Source of the DNA: a virus
Virus record (IMG/VR): IMGVR_UViG_3300042091_001222
Span: 1 to 31,368 of that record
DNA length: 31,368 nt
Reading direction: 5' to 3' (one strand)
A model generated the notes under the pieces. That model made no database searches, was not told the DNA's origin, and was given only the letters and a program-made list of their open reading frames with translations. The position numbers were made by a program, and so were the translations under genes. Positions 1 through 21,730 of this stretch are shown here, one piece after another. Numbering within the stretch: position 1 is the first letter of the stretch; each line of letters starts with the position of its first letter.

Positions 1-620
1 ATGCCAGTAGTTGAACCCGCGATACCCTGTTCCTCGCTGGTCGTCGGTGTGCCCCCTGGTGGTGTCGCTCCCGCTGTGTTGCTGCTGTTCGGGAATGCAT
101 TGTTCAATGGGCCCGGACCAACAAAGAGTCCTTCAGTATTGGAAAGAGTGCTGATGAAATCTGACCACGAACTTGGTGTTGCGGTGGTCGTCGTATCGAG
201 ATTGGCAGCTTGTCCAGCTGTCGCCAGACCCGCCGCGTTCAGGCCGATGTTGGGAGCGCCTGCGATAAATGATCCAGCGACATTCGGGCCGATATTGGCG
301 ATATTTCCCGCGTTGGACTGATTTTGCGTGCCGAGAATGGCTTGGGCAAAGGATGTGCCGCTAAGGCCCGCCCGCGCGAGGTTCTGCCGCGTGGTCTCCA
401 TTCCTTGGCTTGAGGCTTCTCTTGCGGCGTCGGTCTGGCGGTTGATGAGGGGTTCGCCCGAGTTTACGCCGCCCGTTTGCAGGGCGTTTTGCGTTTCGGC
501 TGACAACTCGTTCAGGACCGGCATCGTCGCCCGATTGCGTTGGCTAGCCATAGCCCAAAGAGCGGGAGCATACGGCGAGGTAGTGGTAGTCGAGCTAGAT
601 TTTCCCGATCCTCCGCCCAT
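1..620 (-). CDS. Partial virion protein, possibly internal core (T7 gp14-like position)
   Basis: The reading frame starts at an ATG overlapping the stop of the upstream HNH gene (TGATG) and stays open to the window edge, so the C-terminus is missing; 206 codons are visible. The N-terminus is a Gly/Ser/Thr run, followed by an Ala/Gln/Asn-rich helical stretch (about residues 35-110), then Gly/Ala/Asn-rich and Pro/Thr-rich sequence. No catalytic motif is seen. It follows a tail-tube-like gene and a GNAT-like gene, the order in which T7-type phages place small internal core proteins, which is the only basis for the suggested role. Low-complexity composition is common in such proteins. The coding call is firm because of the long open frame and coupled start; the role is inference. 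Confidence 0.7.
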   Translation of the reverse strand, partial: MGGGSGKSSSTTTTSPYAPALWAMASQRNRATMPVLNELSAETQNALQTGGVNSGEPLINRQTDAAREASSQGMETTRQNLARAGLSGTSFAQAILGTQNQSNAGNIANIGPNVAGSFIAGAPNIGLNAAGLATAGQAANLDTTTTATPSSWSDFISTLSNTEGLFVGPGPLNNAFPNSSNTAGATPPGGTPTTSEEQGIAGSTTG

Positions 621-1132
621 CACTGCACCTCGAAATTACAGCGCGCAAATTCACCGAATGCTGTTCGCGCTCCTCGATCATAGGCTAATGCTGCACTTAT
701 TGGATTGTCGAAAAATCCTAAATCGCAATGTTTATCGCCGATTTTGATGCGTGCTCGATACTTTTGCCGCTTTTTACAAAAATAAATGCCTTTATAAGGC
801 AGGCGACCGGATCGATGTCGCCGGGAGTTTCTGCCGTTTTCCTGATGTGTCGCGTACCTTAGGTTGCTTCGGCGATTGTCCAGACTGTTTCCGCTTTTGT
901 GATCGATGGCTCGATTCGTCGCCATTATCGTGCTGTGCATCCGCTCTAACGCCGTCTGTCCTTTTCGACGAGAGACTGCGTAGGGATTTCCTGCTGGATT
1001 TCGTGACACGCACCATGGACGTCCCGCTACCAGATGCCAATCTGCCGTGTCGATCAGTGCCATCATCCCCTGCGATAAGGGGATTTTCAGCACGTTCGAT
1101 TCTCTCATCAAATCTTCGGTTTCTACGCTCAT
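620..1132 (-). CDS. HNH homing-type endonuclease with AP2 DNA-binding domain
   Basis: A 170-residue protein of the HNH-AP2 class, free-standing endonucleases that cut DNA and spread themselves between phage genomes. Seen directly: an N-terminal strand-rich part (IPLSQG...ALIDTADW), the HNH core with RMH (His66), IDH (His78) and LDNRRSNLR (86-92), then an AP2-like domain from about 113 to 168 (YKGIYF, YRARIKIG, LGFFDNPISAALAYD, FGEFARCNF). The start lies inside the 3' part of the GNAT-like gene in another frame, and the stop overlaps the next start as TGATG. A second in-frame ATG eight codons later is also possible. The position suggests insertion of a selfish gene into the tail operon near the end of the GNAT gene. 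Confidence 0.93.
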   Translation of the reverse strand: MSVETEDLMRESNVLKIPLSQGMMALIDTADWHLVAGRPWCVSRNPAGNPYAVSRRKGQTALERMHSTIMATNRAIDHKSGNSLDNRRSNLRYATHQENGRNSRRHRSGRLPYKGIYFCKKRQKYRARIKIGDKHCDLGFFDNPISAALAYDRGARTAFGEFARCNFEVQ

Positions 1133-5440: not shown

Positions 5441-6057
5441 CGTTGCTCCATTTGTTCCTCGGCCAGCCGGGCCTGAAAGCGTTCCAGCGTCGTCTTGAGC
5501 GGCGCATAGTCGCGAGCCTTGAGCAGCAGCAGCAGTTCCGCGAGGTCAAGCACCAGGTTATCCGTCTCGGGCTGTACGACGCTCACGTCATTCGGATTCT
5601 GGAGGGCCGCAGTAAGAGTCGAACAAACCATATACACGGTCTGCGCGGTGTTCACGCCGGGGTAGAGAATCAGGAGGTCGCGACCGCACTGCATCCAGCA
5701 GCGAGGCGCCGCGTCCGTCTTCGTCACCCACCGCGTATCCAGCCACGCCAATTCGTTGATGTCCTCGCCCATGTAGTCGAGGTCGCGCCCCGAGGCATCG
5801 CGTACTGTCTCGATCTTTACCGATGCCGGGACGGAAGCTGAGACCTGATAGATGAGCGTCCGCGGCTGGACAGTTAGGGCAAAGGACTGAATCACGTCCC
5901 CCACGATGCCATTGATGACCTGCTGGGAAGTCGAGACCAATCCGCAAGCCGTGGAGAGCAGGGGAATCGCGCTGGTCGGAAAAGCGGGTGTAGCCATGCC
6001 CTGCGGATCGCGCGCGCGCGCCAGAGCGGTGTTCACGAGGATGCTGGCGGGAGTCAT
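5437..6057 (-). CDS. Tail adaptor-like protein (first of two)
   Basis: 206 residues from the ATG that overlaps the upstream stop (ATGA); another in-frame ATG three codons earlier (6066) would also work. The middle (EDINELAWLDTRWVTKTDAA...CWMQCGRDLLILYPG) and the helical end (TDNLVLDLAELLLLLKARDY) have the pattern of podoviral head-tail adaptor/tail tubular A proteins: a turn with a Trp, a GRDxLxLYPG strand, then helices beginning with an acidic Asn/Asp-Leu motif. The neighbours are terminase and tail genes. Together with the 212-residue gene it forms a probable adaptor pair. Family call from pattern and context. Confidence 0.75.
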   Translation of the reverse strand: MTPASILVNTALARARDPQGMATPAFPTSAIPLLSTACGLVSTSQQVINGIVGDVIQSFALTVQPRTLIYQVSASVPASVKIETVRDASGRDLDYMGEDINELAWLDTRWVTKTDAAPRCWMQCGRDLLILYPGVNTAQTVYMVCSTLTAALQNPNDVSVVQPETDNLVLDLAELLLLLKARDYAPLKTTLERFQARLAEEQMEQR

Positions 6058-6242
6058 GGTTTGCATCCCGCATGATAACGTCGAATATCGGCCGGGATGA
6101 CGAGAGGGTCGCCCTTGATCACCGCATAAAACTCATCGTCCTCGAGCAGCAATTCGCCGCATTTATCACAGGGTGTGCGCGTTTGCAGTCCCCGGCAGCG
6201 AATGCCCGTGCGGAGCTTGGCTAAGTGCTGCTCAGTAATCAT
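6054..6242 (-). CDS. Zinc-binding mini protein, 62 residues
   Basis: CDKC at 25-28 plus a late HAGC (57-60) give a C-x2-C...H-x2-C set suited to one zinc ion. ATGA overlaps join it to the terminase nuclease gene upstream and the adaptor gene downstream. The pattern (CxxCGELL, DEFYAVIKGD, then RRYHAGCKP) resembles small proteins that display a zinc-knuckle pair. Function unknown. Confidence 0.75.
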   Translation of the reverse strand: MITEQHLAKLRTGIRCRGLQTRTPCDKCGELLLEDDEFYAVIKGDPLVIPADIRRYHAGCKP

Positions 6243-6877
6243 ACTCCCACACTTTGCGTCAAATGGTCGTGCTGCTCAAGCCGCTGCTCGATCATCTCGG
6301 CGCTCATCCCGGTCTTCCTGAGATAGCTGGCAAGCTGTTGGCGGCTCATCAGGCGCATATGCTCGGGCAGACTCGCCGGCAGCAGCCGGATCGCGTTGCT
6401 CAGAGCGTCCATGCCGTCATTGAAGTGTTTGTCGGGAAAGCGATGCCACTCGTCCTTGAGCGCCCGGCAATACTTCTCGTCGGGACGAAAGAGCCTGCCC
6501 CCTCTTGCAACAGGCTCAATCGCCGATTCGATCGCGAACATCTTGTTGGACAACAGCGCCTCGGGATGCCAGCGGATATTGACTCCTTCCTCGCGCGCGC
6601 GTCGCCGCATCGTATCGTAAAACATGCCCTGCGGACCGCTCACATCGATGCCGAACTTCAACGGCTGCCAGCGATTCTGGGTGGCGAGAATCCGCTGCTC
6701 CAGGATTGTCGTCGCCACCCGCTCCACCCACGCCTCCAGGATGAAAACGCGCTCCAGATTGTCTTGCCCTACCGTCACGATAGCGGAGCGTGAGGTGCCG
6801 TGCGTGGCCTGATTCGGGTTTCCTGCGGGGTCCGCCCAACTCACCCGGTAAAGGCTATTGACCGCGATTTCCTGCAT
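6239..6877 (-). CDS. Terminase large subunit, nuclease part (separate gene)
   Basis: 212 residues with the RNase H-like terminase nuclease: SWADPAG (Asp16), FGIDVSGPQG (Asp78) and FNDGMDALSNAIRLL (Asp154, Asp157), the three acidic sites that hold two metal ions and cut the packaged DNA. The motor ATPase is a separate gene upstream (7414-8730) and three mini genes lie between them. Terminases normally carry both domains in one chain of about 450-650 residues; here 438 plus 212 residues make up that length. The ATG lies two nucleotides after the preceding TAG. The first seven codons form one copy of a 21-nt repeat whose other copy is in the mini gene upstream. Confidence 0.88.
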   Translation of the reverse strand: MQEIAVNSLYRVSWADPAGNPNQATHGTSRSAIVTVGQDNLERVFILEAWVERVATTILEQRILATQNRWQPLKFGIDVSGPQGMFYDTMRRRAREEGVNIRWHPEALLSNKMFAIESAIEPVARGGRLFRPDEKYCRALKDEWHRFPDKHFNDGMDALSNAIRLLPASLPEHMRLMSRQQLASYLRKTGMSAEMIEQRLEQHDHLTQSVGV

Positions 6878-7132
6878 CGCTACTCAATATACTCCGATCC
6901 GTGCCGTAGGACTCCCCAAGCCGTTGAAATGCGGTAACGCCACTCGTCTAACAGTCGACGCCAACGCGGCTTGGGTTTGGACTTCGGGAAAATGATATCG
7001 GCCAATGATTCGCCAGCATCCAGGCGCGCCTGATCTTCTTCGGATAATTCCCATTTAATTGCCTGATTATAAGGAGTGTGTTCGTAATTCATCAGTTCCT
7101 CCCTCCAGACGATTGACCGCGATTTTCTGCAT
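6857..7132 (-). repeat. 21-nt direct repeat flanking a mini gene inside the split terminase locus
   Basis: Copies at 6857-6877 and 7112-7132 are identical at 20 of 21 positions. The left copy is the first seven codons of the terminase nuclease gene; the right copy lies near the 3' end of the zinc-finger mini gene and is read there in another frame. The copies are 255 nt apart. The repeat brackets the 70-residue mini gene and marks a likely insertion or duplication junction. Confidence 0.85.
6880..7092 (-). CDS. Small protein in the terminase gap, 70 residues
   Basis: Starts at an ATG overlapping the stop of the preceding mini gene (TGATG) with a strong GGGAGGAA ribosome binding site. The sequence is hydrophilic: an acidic first half (ELSEEDQARLDAGESLADII) and a basic second half (KSKPKPRWRRLLDEWRYR). 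No family recognised. It sits between the two halves of the terminase, so it could be a linker partner of the motor or an unrelated insertion. Confidence 0.65.
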   Translation of the reverse strand: MNYEHTPYNQAIKWELSEEDQARLDAGESLADIIFPKSKPKPRWRRLLDEWRYRISTAWGVLRHGSEYIE

Positions 7133-7292
7133 TGAATAGCTTTTGTTTCCGTTCGCGCCAGCACTCCTCGACATGCGCTTTCAGAACGCCGCTGCCTTCG
7201 TTCTTGAACTGTCGTCCGCAAAAGACACAATAGATTGGCATCTGAAGATAATGAAACACGCACCAATTTCCGAAATCTTTCTCTTCGTCCAT
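7092..7292 (-). CDS. Zinc-finger mini protein in the terminase gap, 66 residues
   Basis: The start (TGATG overlap, GGGGGAGGAA binding site) was chosen over a longer upstream start. CVFC (residues 22-25) and a later H-x4-C (HVEEC) give a C2HC-type zinc finger. The C-terminus ends GGRN-stop, the same four last codons as in the 41-residue mini gene before it, so the two stop/start junctions are near-duplicates. The 3' end also contains one copy of the 21-nt repeat shared with the terminase nuclease start. Function unknown. Confidence 0.7.
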   Translation of the reverse strand: MDEEKDFGNWCVFHYLQMPIYCVFCGRQFKNEGSGVLKAHVEECWRERKQKLFNAENRGQSSGGRN

Positions 7293-7417
7293 CAGTTCCT
7301 CCCCCAGACGCGCCGCTCGATGCCGTCTGTAACGGAGCGTTTTAGCCAGCCCGAAGATAGCCATCGAGCGTTTTCCATAAATCGGCGCAGGCGCTCATTA
7401 TCATCTATCTGTCTCAT
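7292..7417 (-). CDS. Mini protein immediately after the terminase ATPase, 41 residues
   Basis: Too short for most gene finders. The ATG overlaps the terminase ATPase stop (ATGA), and its own stop overlaps the next ATG (TGATG). It encodes a polar N-terminus (MRQIDDNERLRRFMENARWL) and a basic tail ending VWGRN. The evidence is the perfect coupling at both ends; no family recognised and it might be only a translational spacer. Confidence 0.5.
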   Translation of the reverse strand: MRQIDDNERLRRFMENARWLSSGWLKRSVTDGIERRVWGRN

Positions 7418-8730
7418 TTGTGTCCTAAGACCTGTCTAATGATACCATCTGGATATTTGGCTCGATAATGATCAAACGCTTCCTGCTCCATCCCGCGCGG
7501 CGGCTTCTTGCGCAGTGGCGCATTCGCCGGGTCATATTTGCTCATCCCGAGCGTGAAGCCCAGATTCGACGCGATCCGTTCCTTCCGCAAGGCAATCACG
7601 CGGTCCGCCGATGCCTCCAGAAAACTGATCGTCAACCCATCCTCGCTGATCTCGAATTGCCGCAGCAGATGCCAGTCCAGCGCCGTCACGCCCCTTCCGA
7701 CGCGTCGGTTCATGTACCACGCCGCCCACTCGATGGCGTCGTTCTGCTCCCGCATCTTGTCGATCAGTTCGACCGGATACTTCTCCGGCCAGAGCGGACC
7801 TGGAATTATTTTGCGCGTCAACGGGTCTTCGTTATCGACAATACTCTTGATCATCACCTCGACGGTCGGGTCTTTCTCCCACTCGGCGTAGAGATCACAA
7901 GCTGGCCATTCGGTTCCGACACCAACGATAATCCCCTGCTCCTTATTATAGAGGCGAGTACGGAGTGCGCGGCGAAACTTCTTAGCTCTTTCAAGGAGAG
8001 GCGGGCTTTGACTGGCTTCAAGTGCTGCCAAATCGTCTGCAACCATAATATCGAAGTAACGTCCAACGAAACCGCTTTTAACACCAATTGCGGTGACGCT
8101 TGGTTCTGCCCAGACTTCGCTTCGCTTGACCTCGATGAAGCGATCACTCCAGCGGGGCGCCTGCGCCTTGCAGTTTTCCCAGATGACATCTGGCCACAGC
8201 CAGTAGAGCCAGTCGTTACTTTCGAGATGCGTCTTGACATAGCTTAAGTTTTCCTTGGATTTTTCTTCTGATTCGTTGGCAAGCAAGATACGCGCGTTCT
8301 TGCCAGGTCTTCCTTTGAAGTATCGGTTGTTCTCGATGGGTTGGATAAGTACGTGAATGGGCAACGAACGTGAGGCTATAGTGGTCTTCAGATGGCCCAT
8401 AGGTAACATCAGTAACTTTGAACGCGTGCGTGTAAAGTCCGTGAGAAAAGGACACGCAATCGCCCGGTGCAATGAACCTAAGCCCAGCCAATCGTTCTCT
8501 AACAACCAGCGTGAAAGGAACCACAACTCTTGCTCGCACTTCCTCTTTAGCCATCCCTTGAACTCCCCGCTCACATCCGTGTGCGTCCCTGTATGATGCA
8601 GCTCTGGCGGCCTCTCCCCCGCCCGTGCCATATCGTCCCGCAGCCGCTCAATCTGCTCCACCCGTGGCGCCTGCCGCTCCCCACTCGTGTTGATCGCCCC
8701 CCGCCGCGGCCGCCCTACTGGATTCTTCAC
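7414..8730 (-). CDS. Terminase large subunit, ATPase part
   Basis: 438 residues of the terminase motor that drives DNA packaging into the prohead. Seen: a degenerate Walker A (LPMGHLKTT, 109-117), Walker B (FDIMVADD, 226-233), the coupling motif GVGTEW (270-275), and the end of an ATPase domain (AAWYMNRRVGRG). The nuclease domain is absent and occurs as a separate gene downstream. The chosen GTG start (MKNPVGRPRRG...) overlaps the stop of a mini membrane gene as GTGA; a GTG 15 codons earlier would read back through that gene. No small terminase subunit is recognisable nearby. Confidence 0.88.
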   Translation of the reverse strand: MKNPVGRPRRGAINTSGERQAPRVEQIERLRDDMARAGERPPELHHTGTHTDVSGEFKGWLKRKCEQELWFLSRWLLENDWLGLGSLHRAIACPFLTDFTRTRSKLLMLPMGHLKTTIASRSLPIHVLIQPIENNRYFKGRPGKNARILLANESEEKSKENLSYVKTHLESNDWLYWLWPDVIWENCKAQAPRWSDRFIEVKRSEVWAEPSVTAIGVKSGFVGRYFDIMVADDLAALEASQSPPLLERAKKFRRALRTRLYNKEQGIIVGVGTEWPACDLYAEWEKDPTVEVMIKSIVDNEDPLTRKIIPGPLWPEKYPVELIDKMREQNDAIEWAAWYMNRRVGRGVTALDWHLLRQFEISEDGLTISFLEASADRVIALRKERIASNLGFTLGMSKYDPANAPLRKKPPRGMEQEAFDHYRAKYPDGIIRQVLGHK

Positions 8731-8867
8731 CCCAGCCACGCTAGATGCGCCCCACTCAACCAAAGCAACAAACACTCAAAACCCACTGTCGTCACCACCA
8801 CCCCCGCAATAAATCCTATAAGCAAGCCCTCACCCCCACTCAACATCCCCCTCCCTGGATTCTTCAT
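8727..8867 (-). CDS. Mini membrane protein B upstream of terminase, 46 residues
   Basis: Single transmembrane segment (GLLIGFIAGVVVTTVGF, 14-30) followed by ECLLLWLSGAHLAWLG. It ends in a GTGA overlap with the terminase start. GGGAG lies nine nucleotides before the ATG. It shares the pattern IxFIAGxV...LLLWxSGxH with the 32-residue mini protein just upstream, so the pair looks like a tandem duplication. Its first codons (TGAAGAATCCAG) are also repeated at the terminase start. A holin- or signal-anchor-like role is possible but unproven. Confidence 0.6.
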   Translation of the reverse strand: MKNPGRGMLSGGEGLLIGFIAGVVVTTVGFECLLLWLSGAHLAWLG

Positions 8868-9254: not shown

Positions 9255-9516
9255 CTCCAACCTCCCCTACTGTCGAAATTATGCTGGCTCCCGGCGCAGG
9301 ACTCGAACCTGCATCGACGGGTCCAAGGCCCGTTGTCCTACCATTAGACGAACCGGGACCTCGAACTTCAGCTTTCAAGTATCCGCTGAATTCCAAATTC
9401 TGCCGGACGATCCGCCGCACCACAAAATGCCGACTCCGCTCATCATCCGCAGCCAACCGATCCAGCGCCCCCAACTCCTCCGCTGAAAACTTAATGTGTA
9501 CAACAGTGGTATCCAT
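9037..9516 (-). CDS. Ribbon-helix-helix regulator whose frame runs on through the tRNA
   Basis: Residues 1-45 (TTVVHIKFSAEELGALDRLA...SRHFVVRRIVRQNL) fit an Arc/CopG-type ribbon-helix-helix DNA-binding protein: a short beta strand, then two helices. From about residue 52 the frame is translated tRNA-Gln, and beyond that it is a shadow of the 77-residue gene at 9021-9254, so the natural C-terminus was probably near residue 52 and its stop has been lost. A candidate promoter (TTGACT, 17 nt, CATCAT) ends eight nucleotides before the ATG. Likely an autoregulating repressor. Confidence 0.55.
   Translation of the reverse strand: MDTTVVHIKFSAEELGALDRLAADDERSRHFVVRRIVRQNLEFSGYLKAEVRGPGSSNGRTTGLGPVDAGSSPAPGASIISTVGEVGDEEKHSGMASDKRPAARKIESGASRDESGALGGISSGVVSESMHDTKRGRRAAEPSGERCRHGLYYCERCHG
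9285..9358 (-). tRNA. tRNA-Gln (UUG anticodon), CCA encoded, C33
   Basis: Folds as a full cloverleaf on the minus strand: seven-pair acceptor stem (TCCCGGT with GCCGGGA, one U-G pair), discriminator G and genomic CCA; D arm GTC...GAC with AATGGTAG loop; anticodon stem ACGGG/CCCGT with loop CCTTGGA; T arm GCAGG-TTCGAGT-CCTGC; four-nucleotide variable loop. The anticodon is TTG, reading Gln CAA. Position 33, nearly always U, is C. It lies inside the open reading frame of an RHH protein, on the same strand. Phage tRNAs can offset host codon bias or mark integration sites; no integrase is seen here. Confidence 0.9.
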
Positions 9517-12898: not shown

Positions 12899-13519
12899 TT
12901 ATCCTGAGACAGCCCCTGCCTGATTAGGACGCGCATCTGATCTTTCGGTGTCATTTGTCGGTTTGCTCAACAAGTCGGACAGTTTATACAAAGCGTCGAA
13001 CTTTACGTTGTGTGCTTCGATATTTTCTTTGCCTGCTGACTCTTCCCGATCTATCAGCAAAATAGCGCGCGACACTTGAAGTCTAGCGGAACGGGCACCT
13101 TCAATCGCCTTTATGACAGAGCCGCCCGAAGTGGTTACATCGTCAACTATGAGCGCTCGATCACCTTCGTGAACTTCGCCTTCGATCAATTTCATAAGGC
13201 CATGCGACTTGGGTTGTTTTCGAACTACAAACACGCGGACCGTTCGACCTGTCATCTCATAAATTGCATCGGACACGGCGGCTGCAAGCGGATAAGCCCC
13301 AAGTTCCAGACCGCCCACCGCATCGATCGAATCATCCTGAAGAAGCTGCGCGATCAACTTGCCCATGAGTGTACGCGCACGCGGATATGAAAGTGCCATC
13401 TTGCAGTCGATGTAATATGGACTGCTTTTTCCTGAGGACAAATGAAAATCGCCCTTCGAACGAAAGGACGTCGTTCGAAGGATTTCAAGCAATTCCGCCT
13501 TGTCTCCCCGATAATCCAC
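12899..13519 (-). CDS. pyrE: Orotate phosphoribosyltransferase
   Basis: Catalyses orotate plus PRPP to orotidine 5'-phosphate in UMP synthesis, a cytosolic host pathway. The PRPP-binding motif IVDDVTTSGGS is at 124-134, the catalytic loop RKQPKSHG at 100-107 (Lys and His present), and the substrate region SSGKSSPYYIDCK at 28-40. The 206-residue length is normal for the family. The GTG start is preferred because AGGGAGG sits eight nucleotides before it; the frame extends to a TTG at 13576. Last gene of the minus-strand DNA-metabolism operon. Apparently intact, so it probably serves as an auxiliary metabolic gene supplying pyrimidines for phage DNA. Confidence 0.92.
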   Translation of the reverse strand: MDYRGDKAELLEILRTTSFRSKGDFHLSSGKSSPYYIDCKMALSYPRARTLMGKLIAQLLQDDSIDAVGGLELGAYPLAAAVSDAIYEMTGRTVRVFVVRKQPKSHGLMKLIEGEVHEGDRALIVDDVTTSGGSVIKAIEGARSARLQVSRAILLIDREESAGKENIEAHNVKFDALYKLSDLLSKPTNDTERSDARPNQAGAVSG

Positions 13520-13585
13520 CGCATCATCCTCCCTTGCGCCTCGAATAATCCCGCACTTTGCCCGCGAAGCACTCAAGAAGCTCGG

Positions 13586-14492: not shown

Positions 14493-14846
14493 TTAGGCAA
14501 GCGTTCCCACCCATCCATCTTCCTTGAAGCATGTCTCATCCGTCAGCTCATGACGCAAGTAGCGGATGGTCTCCGCGAACTCAGGTTCCCGCGCGATCCT
14601 GTTGATAATCAGGTTGCAGCCGTGGATAACTGTCGAATGATCGCGTCCGAAATAAGCTCCGATTTGCGGGTAGCTCCGATGCGTCATATCGCGAATTAGG
14701 AAAAACGCGATCTGCCTGCATAGCGCCGTATGTTGACCCCTACGTGGTCCCTTTAGCTCCTCGATTGGCACTCGCAGGCGCTTGGCGACGTGCGTGATAA
14801 TCGGCTCGATGTCGAGCAGATAGCCTGGTGTATGACGATGGATCAT
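14493..14846 (-). CDS. Stand-alone DnaA domain IV-like DNA-binding protein
   Basis: 117 residues consisting almost only of the DnaA C-terminal DNA-binding domain. RQIAFFLIRDMTHRSYPQIG (44-63) and FGRDHSTVIHGCNLI (66-80) match the DnaA signature that reads DnaA boxes; no AAA+ ATPase domain is present. It overlaps the preceding nuclease gene as ATGA. Possible roles: phage origin recognition, competition with host DnaA at oriC, or transcription control. It sits among other DNA-metabolism genes. Domain call firm, role inferred. Confidence 0.88.
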   Translation of the reverse strand: MIHRHTPGYLLDIEPIITHVAKRLRVPIEELKGPRRGQHTALCRQIAFFLIRDMTHRSYPQIGAYFGRDHSTVIHGCNLIINRIAREPEFAETIRYLRHELTDETCFKEDGWVGTLA

Positions 14847-16958: not shown

Positions 16959-17375
16959 TTTCTGCCCTAATTTCGTCAGTAGCCGCGTCCATCACTCATC
17001 TCCTTGGCTGGGGGGTTGACTAACCGGCTAGGGGGTTGGTATCTTGGCGTTGTCCGGTTCTCCCCATTTTCATAAAGCGACACCGACGCCTCGATTCAGT
17101 ATTGACTCGGGGCGTTTGTGTTTGTAAAACTGGTTGCGCCAAGCAGACTACGCTTTGTCGAGCTTGGTGGGTGAGGAATCGCGACGTACCTAGGACCGTC
17201 CATTCCGTTTCCCCGATTAGATTTTGAGCCACGAGACCTTCCTGAGTCTTGACGACGAAGTTTGGTCTGCGGTGTTTTGTGCCTTTTGCACTCGCTCTTA
17301 ATCTTTTTCTGGGGTTCGGAATCACTTTCTGTTTTCTTCTCTTTCTCTGCTTCTTTGATGGCGATTATCCGGCTG
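16959..17375. other. Stretch without a convincing gene
   Basis: Several frames are open on both strands but none has a ribosome binding site, a coupled start or a recognisable domain. A good AAGGAG on the minus strand (about 17000) precedes a 15-codon frame only. Two GGGGGTTG motifs lie at 17013-17040. The stretch precedes the transposase promoter and probably includes the left boundary of the inserted island; I could not identify terminal inverted repeats. Confidence 0.5.
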
Positions 17376-17404
17376 TTGACTCTTTCGTCTGGTTGCGCTA
17401 GATT
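17376..17404 (+). promoter_or_regulatory. Candidate promoter of the transposase gene
   Basis: -35 TTGACT (17376-17381), 17-nt spacer, -10 TAGATT (17399-17404), then seven nucleotides to the first ATG of ATGATG at 17412. Leaderless-type spacing again. Confidence 0.55.
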
Positions 17405-17411
17405 ACGATGC

Positions 17412-18284
17412 ATGATGACGCTCCGAGAATTGATGGCGACCTTTCCGACCGACGACTCCTGCAAGCAGTTCCTCATGGAGCGGCGCTGGCAAGATGGCGT
17501 CGTAAAGTGCCCGCGTTGCGGGAATCCGGCTGTCTATAAGCTCATCACGCGGCCTTTTCACTGGCTTTGTAAGCCGTGCGCAAACTACCGCTTCAGCGTG
17601 ATCAGCGGGACGATCTTCGAGAACACGAAATACCCGCTCAAGGTGTGGTTCGAGGTTCTCTGGCAGATACTCAATTCCAAGAAAGGCGTTAGCGCCAAGC
17701 AGATTCAACGTCAGATCGGTTGCGCGTCGTATCAGACCGCTTGGTATATGTGCATGCGGCTGCGCGCGTCCATGCACGACCCTGACTTCCGCCAGCTCAT
17801 GGGCGTCGTGGAAATCGACGAAACCGGTATCGACGGAAAAGACAAAAACCGCCACTGGGACAAGAAAAAGCACATCACCGGCCTGAGCGGTAAGACTACG
17901 GTCATCGGGGCGATCAGTCGAAAGGGTAACGTGGTCTGTCAGATTATCGACGATACGAGCGCAGCCACCCTCAATAAGTTTGTCCGCAAGGCTGTGAGTG
18001 ACAAGGTTGATCTGGTCGCGACGGATGAGTTTGCCGGTTATCACTATCTGCGAGCGCTGGGATACGAGCACGGTGCGGTCAGTCACTCGCAAGGCGAGTA
18101 CGTGCGCGGCGAAGTCCATACGAACAACATCGAAAGCTTCTGGAGCCTGCTTAAGCGCGGCATCATGGGTAGCTTCCACCATGTCAGCGCAAAGTATCTG
18201 CCACTGTACCTCGCGGAGTTTCAATTCCGTCACAACAACCGCCGTGAGTCCGATATTTTCGGCAAGGCGATAGAGGGGGCCTGA
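17412..18284 (+). CDS. IS1595-family (ISXO2-like) transposase
   Basis: 290 residues. An N-terminal zinc ribbon (CPRCGNPAVY...CKPC) is followed by the DDE-type domain: EIDETGIDG, VATDEFAGYHYL, and HTNNIESFWSLLKRGIMGSFHHV with the conserved H-N-IE-W. RHNNRRESDIF is near the end, as is usual for the family. Length is full and no frameshift is seen in the core. It opens the plus-strand island inside minus-strand genes. No inverted repeats or target duplication were found by eye, so it may be a domesticated or decayed insertion rather than a mobile copy. Confidence 0.9.
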   Translation: MMTLRELMATFPTDDSCKQFLMERRWQDGVVKCPRCGNPAVYKLITRPFHWLCKPCANYRFSVISGTIFENTKYPLKVWFEVLWQILNSKKGVSAKQIQRQIGCASYQTAWYMCMRLRASMHDPDFRQLMGVVEIDETGIDGKDKNRHWDKKKHITGLSGKTTVIGAISRKGNVVCQIIDDTSAATLNKFVRKAVSDKVDLVATDEFAGYHYLRALGYEHGAVSHSQGEYVRGEVHTNNIESFWSLLKRGIMGSFHHVSAKYLPLYLAEFQFRHNNRRESDIFGKAIEGA

Positions 18285-20871: not shown

Positions 20872-21063
20872 ATGAGAGCGCGGCACTTCCGCTATCACGA
20901 CGACTGGGAAGCCAACCGTGTCTGGCTCTGTACCCACGTCTGCGCTTGCGGCCCGTGGACGCACGATAGCATCCCCGAGGATTGTGAGTTGTGGCTGGAA
21001 ACGGAAGCCCGCTGTCCGACCTGCATTGAAGATGACGAGAAGGAGCAAGAAGCGCATGTCTAA
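20872..21063 (+). CDS. Zinc-binding mini protein, 63 residues
   Basis: AGGAGACTAACGAC precedes the ATG. THVCACGPWTHD and CPTC near the end provide Cys/His pairs. Acidic in the second half (PEDCELWLETEARCPTCIEDDEKEQE). Its first codons share TAACGACATGAGAGC with the methyltransferase gene start. It overlaps the next gene by eight nucleotides. Confidence 0.65.
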   Translation: MRARHFRYHDDWEANRVWLCTHVCACGPWTHDSIPEDCELWLETEARCPTCIEDDEKEQEAHV

Positions 21064-21730
21064 AATTTTGGCTTATCACTTTCTCCGCGACGACATGACC
21101 GCACGCTCAGGTAAGGAAAAAGCTTGGGAGATTGGCGAAGAACGCTCATTCCCTGAGAACATGGCTATCGAGCTTTGCACTTTTGGCTATCACTCCGCGC
21201 CGACGCTTTGGGACGCGCTGCAATATGCGCCGGGACCGATGGCGTGTCTCGTTGAAATTTCGGAGCCAATCGAGAAAGACGATACTAAGCAGGTCAGTCG
21301 CACGCGCAAATTAATCAAGGCCGTCAACATCGACCGTGAGTTACGGCTGTTCGCAGCGGATTGCGCAGAGCGCGTGCTTTATATTTTCGAGAAGCATTAT
21401 CCAAAAGATGACCGCCCTCGAAAGGCCATTCAGGCTGCGCGCGATTTTGCCGACGGTAAGATTGACGCCGCCGCATGGGCCGCCGCACGGGCCGCCGCAT
21501 GGGACGCCGCACGGGCCGCCGCATGGGACGCCGCACGGGCCGCCGCACGGGACGCCGCAGGGGCCGCCGCAGGGGCCGCCGCAGGGGACGCCGCACGGGC
21601 CGCCGCATGGGACGCCGCACGGGCCGCCGCACGGGCCGCAGAGATCGAATGGCAAAAGCAGCACTTCGAGCAAATATTTAGCGGGATATTTGGTGAAGAC
21701 GAGAAGACGACGAGCCTACTGGCGAAATGA
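21056..21730 (+). CDS. Early protein with Ala-rich tetrapeptide repeats, 224 residues
   Basis: Residues 1-135 form a domain seen in various phage and bacterial hypotheticals (KILAYHFL...TFGYHSAPTLWDALQYAPGPMACLVEI...RLFAADCAERVLYIFEKHYP). It is followed by 14 copies of a four-residue repeat (A/D-A-A-W/R/G) that would form a long Ala helix, then EIEWQKQHFEQIFSGIF. Related repeat proteins occur widely in phages, and copy number is expected to vary. The second codon set overlaps the previous stop. Function unknown. Confidence 0.75.
   Translation: MSKILAYHFLRDDMTARSGKEKAWEIGEERSFPENMAIELCTFGYHSAPTLWDALQYAPGPMACLVEISEPIEKDDTKQVSRTRKLIKAVNIDRELRLFAADCAERVLYIFEKHYPKDDRPRKAIQAARDFADGKIDAAAWAAARAAAWDAARAAAWDAARAAARDAAGAAAGAAAGDAARAAAWDAARAAARAAEIEWQKQHFEQIFSGIFGEDEKTTSLLAK
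21467..21634 (+). repeat. 14 tandem 12-bp units in the Ala-repeat gene
   Basis: Unit G(C/A)C-GCC-GCA-(T/C/G)GG, in frame, 168 bp without interruption. Because of the composition all six frames stay open here, which creates several spurious Gly/Pro- or Arg-rich frames. Slippage could change the copy number without a frameshift. Confidence 0.95.

Follow-up and report, generated by a model that had tools for sequence, protein, structure and literature searches.

Must the motor and the nuclease of a phage large terminase subunit (TerL) be parts of one polypeptide? This question is raised by a 31,368-nucleotide stretch of viral DNA (IMG/VR record IMGVR_UViG_3300042091_001222, positions 1 to 31,368), a 31-kb fragment referred to here as the window, in which a terminase ATPase gene and a gene for a stand-alone RNase H-like nuclease are separated by small open reading frames (ORFs). 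An earlier, sequence-only reading of this DNA had listed the ATPase, three ORFs (41, 66 and 70 codons) and the nuclease, all five of which are present in the window, and had attributed the separation of the two domains to inserted genes. Based on our analysis, the locus very probably encodes a two-chain large terminase, in which the break in the linker is old, the two halves have stayed adjacent and coupled, and the small ORFs are later, lineage-specific arrivals.

When the two gene products were compared with the TerL profile phrog_38 (760 positions), the ATPase matched positions 266-519 (E 1e-27) and the nuclease positions 548-718 (E 2e-17). The two halves thus match consecutive parts of the profile, and therefore the break sits in the inter-domain linker. 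The catalytic positions were intact, with K130 in a GHLKTT-type P-loop and DD247-248 of the ATPase being invariant across 14 homologues, and D16, D78 (E in clade B, see below) and D154/D157 of the nuclease being conserved. These positions and the profile matches confirm that the ATPase and the nuclease lie on separate genes divided at the motor/nuclease border, as had been read from the sequence. The nuclease fold was predicted by AlphaFold2 with a mean predicted local distance difference test score (pLDDT) of 80, and its best match among the solved structures was the terminase nuclease of phage G20c (Z 14.4, root-mean-square deviation 2.8 over 144 amino acids), followed by those of PhiV-1 (Z 14.3) and of Sf6, RB49, D6E and HK97 (Z about 13). 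Neither half reached a terminase model in a Pfam search, and a sequence search of solved structures gave weak matches only, the ATPase matching the PhiV-1 and T7 terminases with E 0.12-0.23. Codon usage in the window gave clear coding support for both large terminase genes, and these do not form one polypeptide, as they are two ORFs in different frames, each with its own start. For the ATPase a later start at GTG 8730 (codon 16 of the longest ORF) gives a protein of 438 amino acids and fits the starts of the relatives (MGRP...) better; the gene end at 8730 given by the sequence-only reading agrees with this codon, although the longest ORF begins at 8775.

Searches of viral contigs and genome contigs yielded 10 relatives with approximately 45-53% amino acid identity in the ATPase, together designated clade A (L002, L007, L008, L009, L011, L012, L013, L014, L015 and L016). 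Two further hits, L006 and L010, are additional reads of L002, and the terminase proteins of L009 and L011 are identical. The survey of relatives for fused or split forms, suggested by the sequence-only reading, showed a split terminase in all 10, again as two ORFs in different frames with their own starts. Repeat scans by ATPase and by nuclease returned no fused member of clade A, the nuclease scan giving the same contigs. The only clade A locus from the genome-contig scan, L016, lies in an Acidiferrales bin, and 396 genomes of the same phylum contained fused phrog_38 terminases and no further clade A member. In the contigs of the relatives, which measure 46-60 kb for most, phrog_38 finds just the two halves and no second TerL; for L012 both halves were given as one match spanning stops. 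In the pair L011/L012, the ratio of nonsynonymous to synonymous substitution rates (dN/dS) came to 0.06 (ATPase) and 0.036 (nuclease), and in the pair L013/L015 to 0.077 and 0.092, respectively, indicating that both halves are functional genes under strong purifying selection. This selection, together with the retention of the split by every near relative, is in line with the suggestion that the two chains must cooperate.

The number of small ORFs between the halves ranges from 0 to 3 when the window is included. There is no small gene in L007 and L009/L011 (in each a 23-nt overlap of the halves), L008 (7-nt gap) and L016 (1-nt overlap), one small ORF in L002, L012, L013 and L015 (59, 58, 77 and 74 amino acids, respectively) and two in L014 (74 and 67 amino acids), and the small proteins of clade A show no recognisable relatedness to one another. 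The terminase genes of L011 and L012 are 93-94% identical and differ by exactly one junction gene: an extra 58-codon gene lies exactly at the L012 junction, where in L011 the ATPase runs into the nuclease start instead. This pair shows that small genes are gained or lost where a break is already present and, taken together with the relatives that are split with nothing between the halves, indicates that the break came first and the small ORFs arrived later. The idea that inserted genes had separated the domains was thus not borne out; an insertion could still conceivably have made the first break and disappeared afterwards. Directly after the nuclease gene there are likewise small genes, of which some have paired cysteines, at 6054-6242 (minus strand) in the window, at 3197-3421 in L016 and at 7205-7438 in L015. 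As such genes follow the nuclease in several relatives, small-gene turnover is not confined to the split junction.

The features of the split locus are collected in the table. Where the sequence-only reading had all genes joined by overlapping stops and starts, this was found at three of the four junctions (ATGA, TGATG and TGATG), whereas 2 nt lie between the 70-aa stop codon and the ATG of the nuclease. Profile searches with Pfam and PHROGs gave no significant family match for the three small ORFs, and none of the small proteins, those of the relatives included, could be placed in a family. The 66-aa ORF has a zinc-finger-like CxxC...HxxxxC motif, its matches to zinc-finger models all being sub-threshold. 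A codon-usage signal was absent for the 41-aa ORF and weak for the 66- and 70-aa ORFs, which leaves the small ORFs less secure as genes than the ATPase and the nuclease; it is doubtful that the 41-aa ORF is a functional gene.

Two repeats mark the small ORFs. The two copies of a 26-nt repeat agree at 23 of 26 positions (88% identity), and in 400 simulated sequences the best agreement was 21 and never 23. At the eighth residue (window numbering) the upstream copy has R and the relatives have K or R, whereas S stands at the present nuclease start of the window. Most simply, the upstream copy would be a relic of the nuclease start from before the insertion of the 70-aa ORF. A 14-nt exact repeat is less striking, as it was reached in 1 of the 400 simulated sequences and is in part expected of any strong ribosome site.

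Table. Positions of the split terminase genes, the small ORFs and the repeats in the window.
Feature	Positions	Strand	Length	Remarks
Terminase ATPase (motor) gene	7414-8775	-	453 aa	length from the first GTG
41-aa ORF	7292-7417	-	41 aa	start overlaps the ATPase stop (ATGA)
66-aa ORF	7092-7292	-	66 aa	overlaps the 41-aa ORF (TGATG); strong GGAGG ribosome site
70-aa ORF	6880-7092	-	70 aa	overlaps the 66-aa ORF (TGATG); strong GGAGG ribosome site
Stand-alone terminase nuclease gene	6239-6877	-	212 aa	RNase H-like
26-nt repeat, upstream copy	7107-7132	-	26 nt	ATGCAGAAAATCGCGGTCAATCGTCT, reads MQKIAVNRL; putative relic of the nuclease gene 5' end, with the 70-aa ORF between it and the nuclease
26-nt repeat, second copy	6852-6877	-	26 nt	at the present nuclease start
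14-nt exact repeat	7290-7303	-	14 nt	GGGAGGAACTGATG (ribosome site, stop, start), at the 66-aa ORF start
14-nt exact repeat, second copy	7090-7103	-	14 nt	at the 70-aa ORF start

Starting from what can be read in the genomes themselves (a conserved split, small genes that vary, the repeats and the lack of a second TerL), we propose that a once-fused TerL gene broke in the short linker between the packaging ATPase and the RNase H-like nuclease, and that the halves would have stayed neighbours in one operon with stop and start codons overlapping or nearly touching. Ribosomes ending the ATPase, or a small gene after it, may re-start on the nuclease by translational coupling. Both proteins appear enzymatically intact and could meet on the portal or on the DNA, assembling non-covalently, so that translocation and cutting would be carried out without a covalent tether. 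After the split, the junction could gain and lose small genes provided that the start-stop coupling was kept. The three small ORFs of the window would then be lineage-specific arrivals, with the 26-nt and 14-nt repeats as marks of an insertion that may have proceeded by short-repeat recombination. The break appears old and stable and probably arose more than once.

Some points weigh against this proposal. The small ORFs of the window are without close homologues, and their insertion history consequently rests on the repeats and the relatives. The ATPases of clade A carry a conserved C-terminal tail of approximately 60-90 amino acids past the motor domain, with tail columns 49% identical as compared to 60% for the motor and with D391, R397, G406, F407 and R422 among the invariant tail residues; the structure model of the ATPase was poor (pLDDT 55) and was left unused, and a docking role of this tail would be a guess. 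The top fold matches of that model, the PhiV-1 and T4 terminases, were weak and were not used either. Likewise, it is by inference that we let the two chains associate. As regards the interplay of the halves, in D6E the nuclease domain and its C-terminal arm restrain the ATPase, and contacts between the halves therefore probably still matter in trans. When the D6E nuclease domain was removed, the kcat of the ATPase rose from 7.8 to 457.7 per min (PMC5727402), showing that the tether matters in that terminase.

The linker is likewise the site of the split in a second group, clade B, which comprises Podoviridae sp. ctLwi270 (MW202554) and the ctLwi270-like loci L052-L058, L067-L069, L076 and L077. 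In MW202554 the ATPase gene (551 amino acids, including an intein) and the nuclease gene (229 amino acids) flank a 62-aa ORF, and the public record lists each of the two halves as terminase large subunit. In this complete circular genome phrog_38 gives the two halves only, and no second TerL. Nothing lies between the halves in L052, L057, L067-L069 and L076; the junctions are of the ATGA type in L052, L067-L069 and L077, and L057 and L076 have a 1-nt overlap. One related small gene of approximately 84-94 codons is present in L053, L055 and L058 and is under purifying selection (dN/dS 0.14). An intein-like insertion was seen just before the QQMNNP motif, at the same position, in the split ATPase halves of L003 (4102-5757) and L077 (626-2386); that of L003 resembles the inteins of Mycobacterium phage portal proteins, and the insertion is lacking in L052-L058 and L076. 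The nearest fused relatives of clade B are L079 (518 amino acids) and L080, followed by L081 and L085. In the alignment, the linker of L079 holds the position of the clade B break, after '...WLRYY...' and before '...VDPA'. Fused phrog_38 terminases are common in Acidobacteriota genomes, and many Acidobacteriota prophages are, like L079, L081 and L085, among the fused relatives by which the split clades are surrounded.

Whether clades A and B go back to one fission was weighed by means of trees that included the fused sequences. Clade B grouped with L079, L081 and L085 with a support of 94/90, clades A and B were each fully supported, and a single origin of the split was found in 0 of 200 bootstrap trees. 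In the same direction, the fused L079 shares 39-46% identity with clade B in either half, as against 25-29% with clade A. One ancestral fission common to both clades, which would call for a later re-fusion in the L079 group or for its misplacement in the tree, was not rejected by the approximately unbiased test with the split rows as one group (p 0.144, and 0.203 without two long branches). An earlier FastTree with few fused relatives had also joined A and B, although weakly (0.535), and this changed after L079-L085 were added; the trees of the nuclease only and of the ATPase only did not resolve the number of fissions. We consider a single fission unlikely, yet still worth keeping in mind, and two independent fissions, as suggested by these sequences, are favoured, short of proof.

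Other explanations for the separated halves concern how they might be rejoined, or whether they are separate at all. Group I introns interrupting TerL genes are known (PMC5618024; PMC12363816), and if the small genes were an intron or its remnant, splicing would yield a fused TerL, as happens in Twort-like and Jug phages. However, Rfam gave no intron, either at gathering level across the window (tRNA only) or at the junction when the thresholds were relaxed. The nuclease gene brings its own start, with a short leader ahead of motif I, and in L007, L008, L009/L011 and L016 there is no intervening sequence, the genes overlapping or nearly touching in different frames. Two sub-threshold Rfam matches at the junction were judged to be chance. 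Rejoining by a split intein or by programmed frameshifting could be suspected from the conserved C-terminal tail of the clade A ATPases and from the inteins that two clade B members, L003 and L077, carry in their ATPase half. The tail, however, is without intein motifs on reading, and the approximately 15 residues before nuclease motif I are too few for a C-intein; neither a Pfam scan nor reading found an intein in the halves of the window, no dedicated intein model having been applied. As to frameshifting, the relative frame varies (+1 in L007 and L011, -1 in L016, L052 and L057), and in the window three ORFs lie between the halves. As the genes overlap or touch in different and non-constant frames, the halves can be fused neither by an intron nor by a frameshift of conserved type. 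We consider splicing of an intron very improbable, and protein splicing or frameshifting slightly more so.

An essential linker or adaptor role for one of the mini proteins, as the sequence-only reading had proposed, would fit their conserved position, the zinc-finger-like motif of the 66-aa ORF and the selected small gene kept in three clade B members. The linker would nevertheless be missing in L007, L008, L011 and L016 of clade A and in L052, L057, L067 and L076 of clade B, the small proteins of clade A are without detectable similarity, and the 41-aa ORF is without coding signal. With a count that can fall to zero and clade A sequences that are not recognisably related, we judge such a linker improbable, if somewhat less so than any form of splicing; a lineage-specific accessory role of a small protein in some members is possible. 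In single-contig metagenome data the break could conceivably stem from an error of sequencing or assembly or from gene decay, and the nuclease-like gp2 in the historic SIO1 record (NC_002519) may be such a fragment. Against this, the same break is found in 10 independent contigs and the window, the halves are complete with their catalytic residues, and dN/dS is well below 1. An error is hardly credible as the cause, and the statement that the split is not an assembly frameshift holds. The SIO1 gp2 itself (L065, positions 778-1521; 247 amino acids), which follows the 136-aa gp1 of this Roseobacter phage, has a strong fold match to the stand-alone nuclease; it could represent a further split terminase, or else a sequencing frameshift, the record being an old one. 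Evasion of the TerL-binding Avs defence proteins (PDB 8dgc was the top fold match) was also considered and was dropped, as there was no evidence for it here.

Additionally, other genes of the window were recorded. A tRNA-Gln (TTG) gene lies upstream of the terminase genes (9285-9358, minus strand). The window also has a phosphoribosyltransferase-domain gene (12899-13576, minus strand; Pfam E 1.2e-11), orotate phosphoribosyltransferase-like by eye, and a 117-aa protein consisting of the DnaA C-terminal DNA-binding domain alone (14493-14846, minus strand; Pfam E 5.9e-23). An IS1595/ISXO2-like transposase with a zinc ribbon (17262-18284, plus strand; Pfam E 6.5e-35) is located where the coding direction changes. 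The gene at 20918-21730 (plus strand), which has repetitive AARAAAWDAARAAA stretches, matches Imm5-like immunity protein models (Pfam E 7e-13). An HNH endonuclease-domain gene (620-1132, minus strand; Pfam E 8.7e-8) overlaps another ORF and is distant from the terminase split.

A central question on terminases is how cutting is restrained during packaging and triggered at its end, and the models assume that the two domains are tied. Naturally separate domains would let the copy number, the timing and the communication of motor and nuclease be tested independently, for which the pair L011/L012, and the fused L079 beside the split clade B, are natural comparisons. We tentatively suggest that TerL was broken at its linker at least twice independently and kept so, that the covalent link may be dispensable, and that the nuclease could act in trans, possibly with a copy number that differs from that of the ATPase ring, or brought in for the first and last cuts only, by which the junction would have been freed for accessory genes. 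In annotation, such phages would be counted with two terminases, or their nuclease would be missed. The phage group with split TerL is known mainly from environmental DNA. Two short terminase families of PHROGs, phrog_4758 matching the ATPase half only and phrog_5573 spanning the ATPase end into the nuclease, show that half-length pieces are already in the databases; we found no functional account of them, and no description of an intron-free ATPase/nuclease split of TerL in the open-access literature searched.

In a survey of jumbo phages the TerL-associated nuclease domain was described as universal in tailed phages and treated as a C-terminal domain (PMC7824862). The single-chain TerL proteins matched by phrog_38 (T4 gp17, Sf6 gp2, D6E, G20c/P74-26 and PhiV-1) have the same ATPase and RuvC/RNase H-like nuclease in the same order as the window, with the same catalytic positions and with nuclease fold matches of Z 13-14. 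Unlike these, the window has two genes and two chains without a covalent linker, and the clade A ATPase has the extra conserved C-terminal tail. The ctLwi270 type of clade B resembles the window in being split at the same linker with adjacent halves and 0 or 1 small gene between them. It differs in being only approximately 25% identical, in an ATPase that ends about 25 amino acids past the motor without the clade A tail, in the portal gene that follows and in the intein carried by some of its ATPases, and it probably represents a separate fission. In the Twort-like phage fRuSau02, terL is interrupted by group I introns (PMC5618024), and for the intron-interrupted terL of the Jug phages spliced reads serve as evidence (PMC12363816). 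In these phages TerL is likewise spread over separate ORFs with other sequence between them; however, the parts are rejoined by RNA splicing, whereas no intron was found in the window and close relatives have no intervening sequence. The packaging ATPase of the phi29 gp16 type is like the motor of the window in that its chain has no active nuclease: gp16 has a vestigial nuclease fold, and translocation needs no active nuclease in the chain (PMC11476376). Phi29, however, packages unit-length DNA and has lost the cutting activity, whereas the window keeps an intact nuclease as a separate protein.

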